Positions 3,513 through 20,026 of a stretch of DNA of 64,000 nt are shown piece by piece. The DNA comes from Akanthomyces muscarius. Its lineage: Eukaryota; Ascomycota; Sordariomycetes; Hypocreales; Cordycipitaceae. The translations under genes and the position numbers were made by a program. Location: contig NC_079241.1 of NCBI RefSeq assembly GCF_028009165.1, positions 4,154,001 to 4,218,000 on the forward strand, written 5' to 3'. Numbering within the stretch: position 1 is the first letter of the stretch; every line of letters begins with the position of its first letter. The notes under the pieces were generated by a model. The model did no database searches, was not told the origin of the DNA, and worked only from the letters and a program-made list of their open reading frames with translations.

Positions 3513-4012
3513 CTTAGAAATTAACACAGATTCTTCGAATCTGGGAATTTTCCGTTCATCGAAGGCGACGGACTAGCTTTGAAAGCGATCAAGTTTACCA
3601 AGACCACTCTCTGCTCCTCCTTACCCATTCGCTTATCGGAATCTACTTCAAACAGGCAAACGGAATAAAGCTGTGTGTCCTACGACGAGTTTTTGCAGTC
3701 ACGACTTTCAAGATGGTATCCGAGGGCGCCGTATTACTCCGAGTAACCCCTGCCCAGTCCGACTGCAAACGCGTTGAGTTGCCAGCTGGCAGTCGCTTGT
3801 TTTTCCACGGCAGCTTGTCTGGTGAATTTTTTTCACACACAAAACAAAAACAGAAAATAACTATTGCTCCTACAATAATGTAAGTTGCCTTTTATCTCTT
3901 CTCTACTTTCTGCAAAGTCTGACAACGCTTGTTTCAGTCTTTGTACTTACACTTCCTGTCATCGTCACCTGTCCTCTCCAAAAGCCATTGCTCGCTCCTA
4001 AATCCGAACACA

Positions 4013-5243
4013 ATGACAAACTCCCGCCGTGCTCGAAAGAGACGCAGACAAGACTCTCCTACGGCATTCAGACTGGAAGATGGCCAACATCCAAAAAGAC
4101 TTGACTTGGAACAAGTGCCCGTCTACTCGAGAGACAAGGAGCTTGTTTCTCGTCTAGTCCGAGTCTACCAGACCTACGCGGGATCTCTCTCTCAACAGGA
4201 GCAAAGTGAATTTGTAAACATGATGCAGTCTGGCGACTATATGCTTCACAAGGGAGGCTCACCCCCTGTCCGAGCACCAAAGCATCATTTCTACATACAA
4301 ATGTACGACATTTCCAGCGCACTTTGGCTTCGCGAAGAAATCACTTTCGTAAAGTGGGCTCTGCTAGCCACTTTATACCCTTGCGAAACTCTTTATGAGC
4401 TCGGCAAAGTCATCGCGGACCTGGGACTGGACCGACGACCTTGCTTCAACAAGTATGCCCGTTCGCACAAGACAACTCTGGAGAGCCTCGAGCTACCCAA
4501 TCCATGGCAACTAGCGAAGCAATGCACAGTAAGGATTCGAATCATCTCTGTACTTGAGCTCGGGACAAGGAATGTAAGCAATCATTCTGTGTGCTTTTCT
4601 TCTCTACGATGAGCACTAGCTCTTCTGGTGTTACAAGACACTGACTTCTTTGTCCTAGCCGATCCGAATTTTGCCTGAGAGCACGCCTGAACTGGGCCCG
4701 GTTGTCGCTTCAGAGCCCTCAGAAGAACCTCAAACTGAAGATATGAATGGAGTTCCAGATCACATGAATGTTTCGGGTCATGTCAAAGACGCATCCACAA
4801 ACACCATTCAGATCGCAGAAATCCTGTCGGTGCAAGTAACTCAAGCAGTTGTCGCCCGCCTCGAACGCGAGCGTGATGCCGATCGCAAAGAGATGGCACA
4901 ATTAAGAGCAGATGTCGCTCAACTCAAACACGAGCGTGCTGCTGATCGCAAAGAGATGGCACGACTGAGACAAGAGCGTGATGCTGATCGCAAAGAGATG
5001 GTACGACTTGGACAAGCGCAGACTAATCGCGAGAGGACTGAAAGACTTCTCGAAAGAAACCTTGACAAAAACACCGCGGCAATCGAAAGCTATCGTAGTG
5101 ATACTACAACTTCATTGCAAAAAATGCAAAACAATCACGAAAAATTCGAAGAATTCGAACTGGAAAGGATGTCGCATCAGCAGAAGCTAGCAGCATTATT
5201 CCAAGAGCATTATGAGCGACTAGAAGTAGTGAAGGCATCGTGA
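4013..5243 (+). CDS. Unrecognised coiled-coil protein, two exons
   Basis: Exons are 4013-4573 and 4659-5243 (intron 85 nt, GTAAGC...TAG, phase 0), giving 381 aa. I do not recognise the family. Residues 1-20 hold a basic cluster (RRARKRRR) that could be a nuclear localisation signal. Residues about 40-185 form a compact mixed region with Trp, Tyr and Cys and no known motif. After the intron come an acidic Pro/Glu stretch and then, from about residue 255, an evident coiled coil. In it the motif ER.ADRKEM recurs three times at DNA spacings of 63 and 42 bp, both multiples of the 21-bp heptad length. The ATG at 4013 is chosen because it follows a pyrimidine-rich leader and precedes the basic cluster; an earlier in-frame codon at 3929 is not ATG. 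Coding appearance is good, function unknown, possibly lineage-specific. Confidence 0.6.
4869..5008 (+). repeat. Three heptad-phased coding repeats
   Basis: The unit beginning GAGCGTGATGCCGATCGCAA starts at 4869, 4932 and 4974 with only a few substitutions. It encodes ERDADRKEM, ERAADRKEM and ERDADRKEM inside the coiled coil of the gene at 4013-5243. High DNA identity points to recent internal duplication. Confidence 0.85.
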
Positions 5244-16888: not shown

Positions 16889-19482
16889 ATGTACCTACCG
16901 CGCTCTTTGATATCCAAACTCTACATTCACCTCCAAAACTCCCGACACCCGCTTTCGCCTCCCGTTCTCATTCTCGTCGCGCTCGAACCTGACGCCCTCT
17001 GCGGCTGCCGCATTCTGACCCGTCTACTCAAGCATGACTATATTCCGCACAAGATACAGCCCATCTCGGGCTACGCCGACCTCGAAAAGGCCGGCAAGGA
17101 GCTTGTAGTGCCCATGATGGAATCACGAGGCGGCGCCGGCGGCCTTGTTATTTGCCTCGGCGTCGGTGGCATGGTTGATCTGGGTCCGCTGCTCGGTCTT
17201 GAGCCTGAAGGCGAAGAGAATCCCTACAGCGGTGTCGAGGTCTGGGTGCTCGATGCCCATCGCCCCTGGAACTTGGCCAATGTTTTCGGTGGCTTCCCCC
17301 TGCTACCCTCCTCCGACGGGGCCGTAACCTACCAGTCGCGCAGCCCAGTCGGCGTATCCGGTGGTGGCATTGGACGCGCCTACAACTCCGATCGCGGCGG
17401 AATTGTCGTCTTTGACGACGGCGACATCGAAGAAGACCTTATGGCCGAACGTGATGCATATCTGGCGCTGGTAGATATGCCAGACATGGATGACGATGCC
17501 AACGACTATGGACTGAGTGACGACGATGACGAACCTTCAGAGCCCCGGGCTCTTGCTGGCCAGAAGCGCAAGAGCTTGTCGGGCAACGATGACGAGTTGA
17601 GTGACGACGAAGACAGACCCCACCAACGGCGGAGGAGCAACTCGGTACGTTAACGCATCCCATCACACGGCCATGGACTAACACCACGCAGTCAAGCCCT
17701 ATCGATTCACCGAGACGTCCGGCACAGCGAGGATTGGTGTCACTCCGAGACCCGGATGCCGGGCTGTCGAGCGATCCAATTGAGCCTCCATCTGGCGCAC
17801 AGGAGCCTCCCGCGCCCTCGGCCCGCGCCCTTCGACGAAAACTTCTGCGAATGAGGACTGACAACGAGTCGGTGCTGCAACAATACTACAAGATGGGATC
17901 GTCATTTTCAGAACCAATCTCATCCATGATGTACTCGCTGGCCTCGGAGCTCGGTCGCGAAGACAACGACTTGCTGTGGCTTACCATTGTTGGAGTGACG
18001 TCAATGGAGCTGTACGGAAAGTCGTCGGCAGGTGTGGCGGCGCCTGTGCGGGCGACAAGCAAGACTCGGCAGACAGGATGGATGGGAGTGCGTGGTGCAA
18101 GTCTCCGCCAGTTACTACGGGATGAGGTGCGCCGACTGAACCCGCCAGAAATCGCCAATGGGCGAGTCGCTCCTGAGAATACGGGCGTCATCCCGACCAC
18201 AGCTCGCAACCCTGAAGACACCGGCATCAGACTTTCCCCGGAGCCGCGTTTCCTCCTCATCCGCCACTGGAGCTTATACGACAGTATGCTTCACTCCCCA
18301 TATTTGTTCTCGCGCTTGAAGACGTGGAGCGAAACTGGAATCAAGCGCCTGCACAAACTCTTGGCCAAGATGGGCGTCAGTCTTGCGCAGTGCAAGCAGA
18401 GCTACACGCACATGGACATGATGCTGAAACGAGAGTTGCGAGCCAAACTTCTCAAATACGGCTCATTGTACAATCTCGATGAGATGGTCCCCGCGGTAGA
18501 TACGGATGGTAAAGACCGAGCGGGTGCCAAAGACGGATGGGGTTTCGTGAGGAGCTGGGGTTGGCGCGCAACATTGTCGGCACAGGATGTCGGCGTGGTC
18601 ATTGGTGCACTGCTCGAAGTTGGCAAGCACGCACAAGCCATTGACCTAGCGTATGCTGCCAGCCAGGCTGGCCGCGAGGTTGAAGATGATGCCGAAGTCG
18701 CAGCTCAGGGAGAAGAATGGATTAGGCGATTCTGGGAGGCCTATGATGCGCTTGAGGATATTGACGCACTAAAGGCCGGCCTACCGACCGCCCAGTTTTT
18801 ACATCGAGCTATTTACCGAACTGGCACATCGCTGATCAACAAGAAACAAATCAAGCACCTGCGGGCGTTCCGATTATGCGTTGTCAAGGATGGTCCCGAT
18901 GTATCGCTTTTCACGCATCCTTCGGCATTGACAAAACTCTCGCTGTGGATCGGAGAAGCCCTTGCCGAACAAGAGCGAGAAGCACACGGAAAGTTGTCGC
19001 ATGGCGGTCGTGGAACACCTCTGGTTGTGGCCAGCCTGCACGAGAAGCGCGGAGTCTATATAGTGGTTGGCACCGGCGGCGGTGGCGGGCCCGACTCGAC
19101 ATTCATGGACAAGGAAGCGGCAAAGCGGCGGCAGCAGGCCAAGGAGGCCAAGGCGAAGAAGAAGGAAGAGTCTCGTCTCGCCAAGGAGCGCGTAAAGGCG
19201 CAGAAGCGAGCAGACAAGGAAGCCGCCGGAGAAGAGGTGGATGAGCTGGAGACTGAGTCTGAGGGCTCAGATGCATCGGATTCGGAAGATTCAGACTCGG
19301 ATGATGAAGAGCACGACAAGGGCTACGGGCTGAACCGATTCGGCAGCGCATTCCAAGAAGTGATTGGCGAGACGAGCGCTCGCGTGCGAATCGACAGCTT
19401 CGAGCACTGCGTGGTGGAGGTGAAGAAGGAAGACTTGGGTGGCTTCCTGGAGAGTCTGAGCATGAAGGCAGTTGTTGGATAA
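16889..19482 (+). CDS. cdc45: DNA replication initiation factor Cdc45
   Basis: Exons 16889-17644 and 17692-19482 (47-nt intron, phase 0) encode 848 aa, the usual size in filamentous fungi. The N-terminus (PDALCGCRILTRLLKHDYI, then WVLDAHRPWNLANVF) is the degenerate DHH/RecJ-like fold of Cdc45. A long acidic, Ser/Asp-rich insert surrounds the intron (DDDANDYGLSDDDD). The middle region LRRKLLRMRTDNESVLQQYY and the C-terminal helical parts also fit the family. Near the C-terminus lies a Lys/Glu/Ala-rich charged helix and another acidic patch (about residues 733-785). Cdc45 joins Mcm2-7 and GINS to form the replicative CMG helicase in the nucleus. Confidence 0.93.
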
Positions 19483-19873
19483 ATTCATAATGGTAAATGG
19501 GAACAGCGAGTGATTTTAATTTCATGTTGGCAAGGGGTTTGTGGCATTGTTCGTATCATCTCCTTTTAGTAGTCTTTTTTTTCTCGCAACATGGTGGACG
19601 GCGCCTGGACGGGAAACATTTTGTATTTTGACGGCTTGAATGGCATCATGATAGGCAGGCAGGGATCACGGAGTCGAGTGGGCTTGTTTGCCACGTTGGA
19701 GCACTATCAGCAGTATCGACATTGATATAGAGGGCAACAATATGATTTCAGGCACTTACATCATGAGATGAATTCAGTGAGCGGCGGCTGTAATATGAGG
19801 AGAGACTTGGCAGCGGGTACGGTGTTTCGGATACTTATATATTCGTAAATAAGCAGAGTCCCCACACTCGTCT
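19483..19873. other. Intergenic between CDC45 and tRNA-Ser
   Basis: No coding or RNA signal is seen. It contains the 3' UTR of CDC45 and the 5' flank of the tRNA-Ser gene. Confidence 0.6.
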
Positions 19874-20015
19874 GGTAGCATGCCAGAGTGGTTGTAAGTA
19901 GGCTCCGCCACCATCAGTCAATTGATGTACTAACATGGAACCAGAATGGGTGGGACTTGAATTAATCAATCATCCCATGTCTTCGGACGCGCAGGTTCGA
20001 ACCCTGCTGCTATCG
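19874..20015 (+). tRNA. tRNA-Ser (anticodon UGA) with a D-loop spliceosome-like intron plus a canonical intron
   Basis: The acceptor stem GGTAGCA (19874-19880) pairs with TGCTATC (20008-20014; one G-U), followed by discriminator G, the base normal for eukaryotic tRNA-Ser. The T arm GCAGG/TTCGAAC/CCTGC (19991-20007) contains an intact B box, and the long variable arm is TGTCTTCGGACGC. The anticodon arm is TGGGA (19951-19955) with CTTGAA and then TCCCA (19973-19977), anticodon TGA at 19958-19960. A 10-nt intron (19962-19971) follows base 37. The D arm is split: CCA GAGTGGTT at 19883-19893, then 51 nt (19894-19944), then AA TGG (19945-19949). Removing those 51 nt gives a perfect class II D arm with a CCA/TGG stem. 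The A-box-like TGCCAGAGTGG lies upstream of the insertion, and T9 (20018-20026) ends the unit. Confidence 0.85.
19894..19944 (+). other. 51-nt spliceosomal-type intron inside the tRNA-Ser D-loop
   Basis: The insertion begins GTAAGT and ends CCAG. It has a perfect TACTAAC branch-point sequence at 19928-19934, 10 nt before the terminal AG. Length, donor, branch site and acceptor match the mRNA introns in this window (for example 50295-50345, also 51 nt with TACTAAC). The junction falls between T and A of the D-loop, so excision leaves GGTTAATGG. A bulge-helix-bulge for the tRNA endonuclease is not convincing: only GGTT/AACC pairs across the ends, without flanking helices. Confidence 0.75.
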
Positions 20016-20017
20016 AC

Positions 20018-20026
20018 TTTTTTTTT
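20018..20026 (+). terminator. Pol III T-run terminator of tRNA-Ser
   Basis: A run of nine T residues begins three bases after the discriminator base of the tRNA-Ser. Confidence 0.8.

Follow-up and report, generated by a model that had tools for sequence, protein, structure and literature searches.

The window analyzed, a 64,000-nt stretch of the Akanthomyces muscarius genome, corresponds to positions C1:4154001-4218000 of a contig (C1) of 7,450,776 bases, and the whole genome comprises 36.2 Mb in 12 contigs. Within this window lies a tRNA-Ser(UGA) gene that is interrupted twice, by a 51-nt insert with mRNA-type splice signals in the D-loop and by a 10-nt insert at the canonical position of tRNA introns. 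The features of the gene and its surroundings, in window positions, are as follows.

17645..17691, + strand: mRNA intron of the neighboring CDC45 gene, 47 nt, GTACGT...GACTAAC...GCAG, with the branch A 10 nt before the last base (found by tblastn; borders and distance determined by hand)
19836..19842, + strand: TATATAT, about 32-38 nt upstream of the tRNA gene, possibly a Pol III TATA-like element
19874..19893, + strand: exon 1 of tRNA-Ser(UGA), with acceptor 5' strand GGTAGCA, D-stem CCA, and D-loop start GAGTGGTT (from ARAGORN and the letters)
19881-19891, + strand: A box TGCCAGAGTGG
19894..19944, + strand: mRNA-type intron, 51 nt, in the D-loop directly 3' of G18 G19 T T, with GTAAGT at 19894-19899, TACTAAC at 19928-19934 (branch A at 19933), and CCAG up to 19944
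19945..20015, + strand: exon 2, with the remaining D arm, anticodon arm (TGA at 19958-19960), variable arm GTC-TTCG-GAC (19979-19988), T arm (19991-20007), acceptor 3' strand (20008-20014), and discriminator G (20015)
19962..19971, + strand: tRNA intron TTAATCAATC, 10 nt, 3' of base 37 (ARAGORN intron call)
19994-20004, + strand: B box GGTTCGAACCC
20018..20026, + strand: T9 run, resembling a Pol III terminator

The naming of the A and B boxes and the terminator role of the T run follow general knowledge of Pol III genes. The Pfam and PDB matches of other open reading frames in the window have no bearing on the tRNA gene.

The preliminary description of this locus proved accurate in its coordinates, letters, discriminator G, promoter boxes, and T9 run. 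Its one misplaced detail concerns the branch site: TACTAAC is present, but its end lies 10 nt before the end of the intron, i.e., 8 nt before the AG, rather than 10 nt before the AG. In the unspliced form, the gene is not called as a tRNA by ARAGORN, with or without anticodon introns allowed, and the Rfam tRNA model is absent from the three matches of this stretch at E ≤ 10. After removal of 19894-19944, ARAGORN returns tRNA-Ser(tga) with the 10-nt intron TTAATCAATC, read as ttgaa-intron-atccc. These results bear out two earlier claims, namely that the stems require the loss of the 51 nt and that a separate 10-nt insertion follows base 37. The spliced gene has a class II cloverleaf, G73, A and B boxes, and a T run. 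The 10-nt insert occupies the canonical position 37/38, whereas the 51-nt insert lies in the D-loop.

Among 4071 trial deletions of 30-75 nt in this gene, 22 reach an ARAGORN score at least equal to that of the intron removal. Exactly one of these 22 is bounded by GT..AG (0.09 expected), and it also has the branch site. The top-scoring deletion is read by ARAGORN as Gly(ccc) (108.6, vs. 105.5 for the intron removal). Such a preference for Gly(ccc) is found with some deletions of both Ser(UGA) and its paralogue Ser(CGA), and even unspliced Ser(CGA) is read as Gly(ccc) with a 68-nt intron. The ARAGORN score alone therefore cannot fix the reading, which is settled by the paralogues.

When the whole genome was searched with the spliced Ser(UGA) sequence, four DNA matches were found. 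These matches represent two genes, both of which are split at the same base. The second gene is the following.

C11:925497-925637: tRNA-Ser(CGA); its D-loop intron is 52 nt long (GTGAGT...TACTAAC...TCAG), and its 10-nt intron 3' of base 37 differs from that of Ser(UGA)

Exon 1 is identical in the two genes (20/20 nt), the long intron occupies the identical site, and TACTAAC is kept. Their flanking DNA aligns at merely 35/71 and 24/47 columns. The variable arm differs by a paired change, being GTC-TTCG-GAC in Ser(UGA) and GGC-TTCG-GCC in Ser(CGA), and this compensatory change suggests that the tRNA structure of these genes is under selection.

At least 11 tRNA genes of this genome have an mRNA-type intron, in one of three positions: the D-loop in Ser(UGA), Ser(CGA), and three Ser(AGA) genes; between anticodon bases 35 and 36 in three Ser(GCU) genes and one Thr(UGU) gene; and the variable loop in two tandem Trp(CCA) genes. 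A T-arm pattern allowing up to one mismatch occurs at 16 places in the whole genome. Nine of these places were assigned by eye to the Ser type, and they correspond to Ser(UGA), Ser(CGA), the three Ser(AGA), the three Ser(GCU), and one permuted Ser(CGA) gene that is described below. The three Ser(AGA) genes carry the intron at the same D-loop site as Ser(UGA), with GTAAGT, a branch site of TACTAAC, TACTAAT, or CCCTAAC, and an AG end. They lack an anticodon intron. The exact word GAGTGGTTGTRAGT has five occurrences in the 36.2 Mb, which are exactly the five Ser genes with D-loop introns; 17 additional places match with one mismatch. In the three Ser(GCU) genes, the intron GTACGT...CTAACAGCCTCTCAG separates anticodon bases 35 and 36, and its removal yields the anticodon GCU on a Ser body. 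The remaining three genes are listed here.

C3:3658282-3658337 (L054:157-212): variable-loop intron of the first tandem tRNA-Trp(CCA) gene
C3:3658539-3658593 (L112:110-164): variable-loop intron of the second tandem tRNA-Trp(CCA) gene
C5:2972684-2972815 (L001:2408-2539), - strand: tRNA-Thr(UGU), with a 60-nt intron (GTTAGT...TTCTAAC...AAAAAG) at 35/36

The long introns of the Trp genes are 56 and 55 nt in length (GTACGT...TCTAAC...AACAG), and a short anticodon intron is present in addition. Removal of this canonical intron as well gives a 72-nt tRNA-Trp(CCA), in which the anticodon stem of the first gene (Trp1) retains an A-C mismatch. ARAGORN misnames the two genes as Thr and Cys. The Thr(UGU) intron ends in AAG, a weaker 3' site. 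About 900 bp from this gene is a Thr(CGU) gene that is 93% identical to the spliced form and has an empty site; the pair provides a clean setting for the study of intron gain or loss. Long and canonical introns occur together in Ser(UGA), Ser(CGA), and the Trp genes, and the A and B boxes appear to be uninterrupted at all three intron sites. The earlier proposal of an mRNA-type intron beside a canonical tRNA intron in a Pol III gene is strengthened by the 10 further genes. Its account of the origin, an intron gained by insertion into one gene, holds as far as an mRNA-type intron in a Pol III gene is concerned, but a single insertion is too narrow for a set of Ser, Trp, and Thr genes with three different intron positions.

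The deletion test was extended to all of these genes, with about 3,600-4,100 deletions each. For nine genes, 4-30 deletions score at least as high as the intron removal, and exactly one per gene is bounded by GT..AG. The test is not discriminating for the two Trp genes, for which 275 and 411 deletions score at least equally. In a complementary scan, every GT..CTRAY..AG stretch near a B box was removed from 140 distinct B-box segments, some of which had been chosen because of these genes. This gave 119 removals in 29 segments. A tRNA was gained or improved in 14 segments, which represent the 11 genes, and no tRNA was gained in the remaining 15.

The splice signals are shared by all 11 introns: GTNNGT at the 5' end, CTAAC or CTAAT as the branch site, and AG at the 3' end. 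The 5' sites are GTAAGT, GTGAGT, GTACGT, or GTTAGT, such that GTRNGT holds for 10 of the 11, with GTTAGT of Thr(UGU) as the exception. The distance from the branch A to the last intron base is 11 nt in nine introns and 12 nt in two. The 5' site, the 3' AG, the CTRAY at an mRNA-like distance, and the drifting intron body are all those of U2-type introns. The likeness to mRNA introns of the window, noted previously, is upheld by the CDC45 intron, which follows the same plan with its branch A 10 nt from the last base. Elsewhere in 268,695 bases of this genome, with the 11 introns left out, the pattern GT[AG][AC]GT..CT[AG]AC..YAG gives 32 candidates. Among these, 21 have a spacing of 10-13 nt (11, 5, 2, and 3 candidates, respectively), vs. 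4.6 after shuffling. The commonest spacing of these candidates is 10 nt, one below the value in the tRNA genes.

Comparisons among paralogues indicate that the signals have been kept while some of the intron bodies have drifted. Between Trp1 and Trp2, the exons (including the short anticodon intron) are alike in 81 of 84 columns and the intron bodies in 17 of 44, which is below the shuffled level of 0.46; the 5' site, CTAAC, and AACAG are kept despite this drift. Ser(GCU)1 and Ser(GCU)2 are alike in 79/81 exon columns and 17/33 body columns (shuffled level 0.51), and Ser(GCU)1 and Ser(GCU)3 in 81/81 and 19/36, respectively. The bodies are less drifted among the Ser(AGA) genes (20-24/30), between Ser(UGA) and Ser(CGA) (26/29), and between Ser(GCU)2 and Ser(GCU)3 (24/28). 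Thus, the signals are kept under drift in some families, and the other families are too young or too constrained to tell.

Two resemblances among intron bodies were also observed. By eye, the Ser(AGA) genes and the Ser(UGA)/Ser(CGA) pair share the motif GCYCC(GC)CAC in the bodies of their D-loop introns, though their exons differ much. The introns of Ser(AGA)1 and Trp1 have identical last 15 letters, CTAACCCCATAACAG (C1:319785-319799 and C3:3658323-3658337), which may reflect chance or transfer between introns. A spreading element was considered and rejected as their source: CTAACCCCATAACAG occurs exactly in these two places alone, with one further place at one mismatch, so no intron family is seen. 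The word CCGAGTGGTTGTAAGTA had no match in the viral contigs scanned.

An alternative is that the long inserts are cut at bulge-helix-bulge (BHB) motifs, as in red algae and archaea, by the tRNA splicing endonuclease or a less strict variant of this enzyme, with the GT..AG borders being coincidental. There are precedents for introns at such sites, since D-loop and other-site tRNA introns occur in Cyanidioschyzon merolae and ectopic ones without a clear BHB in the Guillardia nucleomorph (available passages of PMC3978253). ARAGORN can also take the long inserts of Ser(GCU) and Thr(UGU) for anticodon-loop introns. However, a strict 4-bp central helix has 1, 1, 3, 4, 2, 0, 0, 0, 2, 2, and 1 of its four pairs in the 11 genes, with a mean of 1.45 vs. 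1.5 for random letters (6/16). Ser(AGA)2 has all four pairs; the window Ser(UGA) has one, and a BHB at the junctions of the 51-nt insert is not supported. Relaxed offsets bring three of the 11 genes, Ser(UGA), Ser(CGA), and Ser(AGA)2, to 4/4 pairs, but the three Ser(GCU) genes remain at one pair or fewer. In comparison, the GT, branch site, AG, and 11-12 nt spacing are found in 11/11 introns, while the bodies of Trp and some Ser(GCU) introns have drifted. Moreover, the yeast enzyme cuts solely at 37/38 according to the available text of PMC4033280. If Ser(GCU) or Thr(UGU) were cut there, the Ser body would be expected to bear the anticodon GCG and the Thr body UGG. Endonuclease cleavage of the long inserts is therefore very unlikely, and the spliceosome is the best candidate for their removal.

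Another explanation is that introns have invaded tRNA genes that are dead or can be spared, with normal Ser and Trp genes located in another part of the genome or in a gap of the assembly. Searches for such copies covered the DNA of the genome with spliced forms and patterns, together with 63 scored candidates of the 781 for the Rfam tRNA model RF00005, and no uninterrupted Ser(UGA), Ser(AGA), Ser(GCU), or Trp gene was found among them. The spliced Ser(AGA) query gives five matches and the spliced Ser(GCU) query six. These are just the three genes of each type, with each Ser(GCU) gene split at 35/36. The Trp(CCA) query gives four matches representing the two Trp genes, both split at one variable-loop site. 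ARAGORN typing of all 51 RF00005 matches listed gives no uninterrupted Ser or Trp gene. B-box places number 277; 100 of these were listed, 30 were excised as loci, five were added later, and some others are genes already read. The exact uninterrupted word CCGAGTGGTTAAGG occurs six times, in Leu(TAA), Leu(TAG), Leu(CAA), and the three Ser(GCU) genes. ARAGORN finds no tRNA at the seven places with one mismatch to this word, which would miss Ser genes with another D-loop.

The only Ser gene found without a long insert is the permuted one, which is located as follows.

C2:3815661-3815746 (L094:1451-1536), - strand: probable circularly permuted tRNA-Ser(CGA), consisting of the 3' half, TGTA, the 5' half, and then a T run

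Rejoined at 37/38, the two halves form a full cloverleaf (ARAGORN score 116.57) with a 7-bp acceptor and a 5-bp anticodon stem. Two patterns detected no further tRNA half on the same strand of this 3-kb locus. For a possible splicing motif (hBH) linking leader and trailer, the duplex of the two has a value of -18.1, vs. a mean of -15.4 after shuffling, and 22% of 500 shuffles are equally good, such that the pairing does not stand out from shuffled sequence. Permuted tRNA genes, including a type II Ser(CGA), are described from algae, a nucleomorph, and an archaeon in the available passages of PMC3978253.

With 63 of 781 tRNA candidates scored, the dead-gene explanation keeps some room, and nine Ser genes seem few for a 36-Mb fungus, judging from general expectation. 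Nevertheless, the searches with spliced forms return interrupted genes only, and every family has kept its exons and T runs intact, with one paired stem change. A cell needs Ser and Trp tRNAs to live. If these genes did not work, all functional copies would have had to escape the searches made with the spliced sequences of the interrupted genes, and this is unlikely. The dead-gene explanation as a whole thus has a slim chance at most. The earlier reservation that several normal Ser(UGA) genes might mark this one as a pseudogene found no support among the candidates examined, where only the equally interrupted Ser(CGA) turned up beside Ser(UGA). The suggestion that it could be the only gene for UCA codons fared less well: no other Ser(UGA) gene was found, but the wording may be too strong because inosine-34 in Ser(AGA) could read UCA too. 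All three Ser(AGA) genes found carry this kind of intron as well.

It is hardly credible that the insert is instead retained in the RNA, with or without a regulatory role, and that the tRNA is used with an enlarged D-loop. The motif common to the Ser(AGA) and Ser(UGA)/Ser(CGA) introns suggests that the intron body may not be entirely free, but the unspliced Ser(UGA) is not recognized as a tRNA, inserts at 35/36 would destroy the anticodon, and the Trp intron bodies are at the shuffled level. Because no uninterrupted Ser or Trp gene of conventional order was found among the candidates examined, the long introns of these genes must almost certainly be removed.

Taken together, these findings indicate that positions 19874-20015 of the window very probably constitute a working nuclear tRNA-Ser(UGA) gene with a U2-type spliceosomal intron in its D-loop, one of at least 11 such genes. 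The anatomy of the genes, their splice signals and borders, their paralogues, and the absence of uninterrupted copies among those found can be read directly from the DNA. From these letters we infer Pol III transcription, splicing, the order of the two reactions, and the dependence on the spliceosome. In the proposed pathway, Pol III would transcribe Ser(UGA) from its A and B boxes up to the T run, as is general for such genes. In the 51-nt intron, GUAAGU would be recognized by the U1 and U6 snRNAs and UACUAAC by base pairing with the U2 snRNA; exon joining would then occur past the AG whose G lies 11 nt beyond the branch A. For the 10-nt intron 3' of base 37, the expected enzymes are the tRNA splicing endonuclease for cutting and tRNA ligase for sealing. 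Because all Ser genes found in the conventional order are interrupted, as are the two Trp genes found, the cell would need the spliceosome to read Ser and Trp codons. The whole nuclear supply of Ser and Trp tRNAs, except for that from the one permuted Ser(CGA) gene, is likely to pass through the spliceosome, and these tRNAs would be the first that depend on it.

This arrangement would have several consequences. Messenger RNA splicing would be coupled to translation, such that failed or regulated splicing would directly starve translation of Ser and Trp tRNAs, and several Pol III transcripts would enter the spliceosome. It would also follow that a tRNA gene transcribed by Pol III can acquire an mRNA intron and retain it, and that several places beyond the promoter boxes allow this. 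The introns of tRNAs and mRNAs are taught as two systems with separate enzymes, and both kinds appear here in one tRNA gene. In addition, such introns may explain why tRNA finders miss or misname Ser and Trp genes in genomes of this kind, as ARAGORN did here.

In eukaryotes, canonical tRNA introns lie 3' of base 37; the Sen endonuclease cuts them out, and tRNA ligase joins the ends. Such an intron is resembled by the 10-nt insert at 19962-19971, whereas the 51-nt insert differs in position, size, signals, and probably in the machinery that removes it. Among fungi, Debuchy and Brygoo reportedly described opal-suppressor tRNA-Ser(UGA) genes of Podospora "with unexpected structural differences" in 1985. 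Among the titles and abstract openings listed from the open-licence PMC literature, no report was found of spliceosomal introns in tRNA genes or, for fungi, of tRNA genes in permuted order. Pol III genes with mRNA-type introns are already known; to our knowledge tRNA genes are new as their hosts, without proven priority.

The ectopic and D-loop introns of C. merolae and the nucleomorph are comparable in that they lie outside 37/38 in nuclear or nucleomorph tRNA genes. In the available passages of PMC3978253, those introns are discussed as BHB-mediated, with many in Guillardia having no defined motif, whereas in the genes described here the spliceosomal signals are conserved and the BHB is not. 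Another parallel is the U6 snRNA gene of Schizosaccharomyces pombe, which has an mRNA-type intron (Tani and Ohshima, 1989, 1991, as cited in the available part of PMC8917221). In both cases an mRNA-type intron lies in a Pol III gene; according to that source the spliceosome removes it in S. pombe, as it probably does in A. muscarius. The interrupted RNA of S. pombe is a component of the spliceosome, whereas in A. muscarius tRNAs serve as hosts, with at least 11 genes and three intron positions. The U6 gene of A. muscarius has two full-length matches (C2:3037284-3037384 and C11:31203-31303; 47 of 2030 candidates scored), and both are intronless. Judging from these two matches, the tRNA introns do not belong to an invasion that includes U6, and this genome offers no internal U6 precedent. 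Finally, there is a likeness to the U2-type introns of fungal mRNAs: in 5' site, branch site, 3' site, length, and spacing, the tRNA-gene introns match the plan of the CDC45 intron, and the two differ in that the former lie in Pol III tRNA genes and the latter in protein genes transcribed by Pol II.
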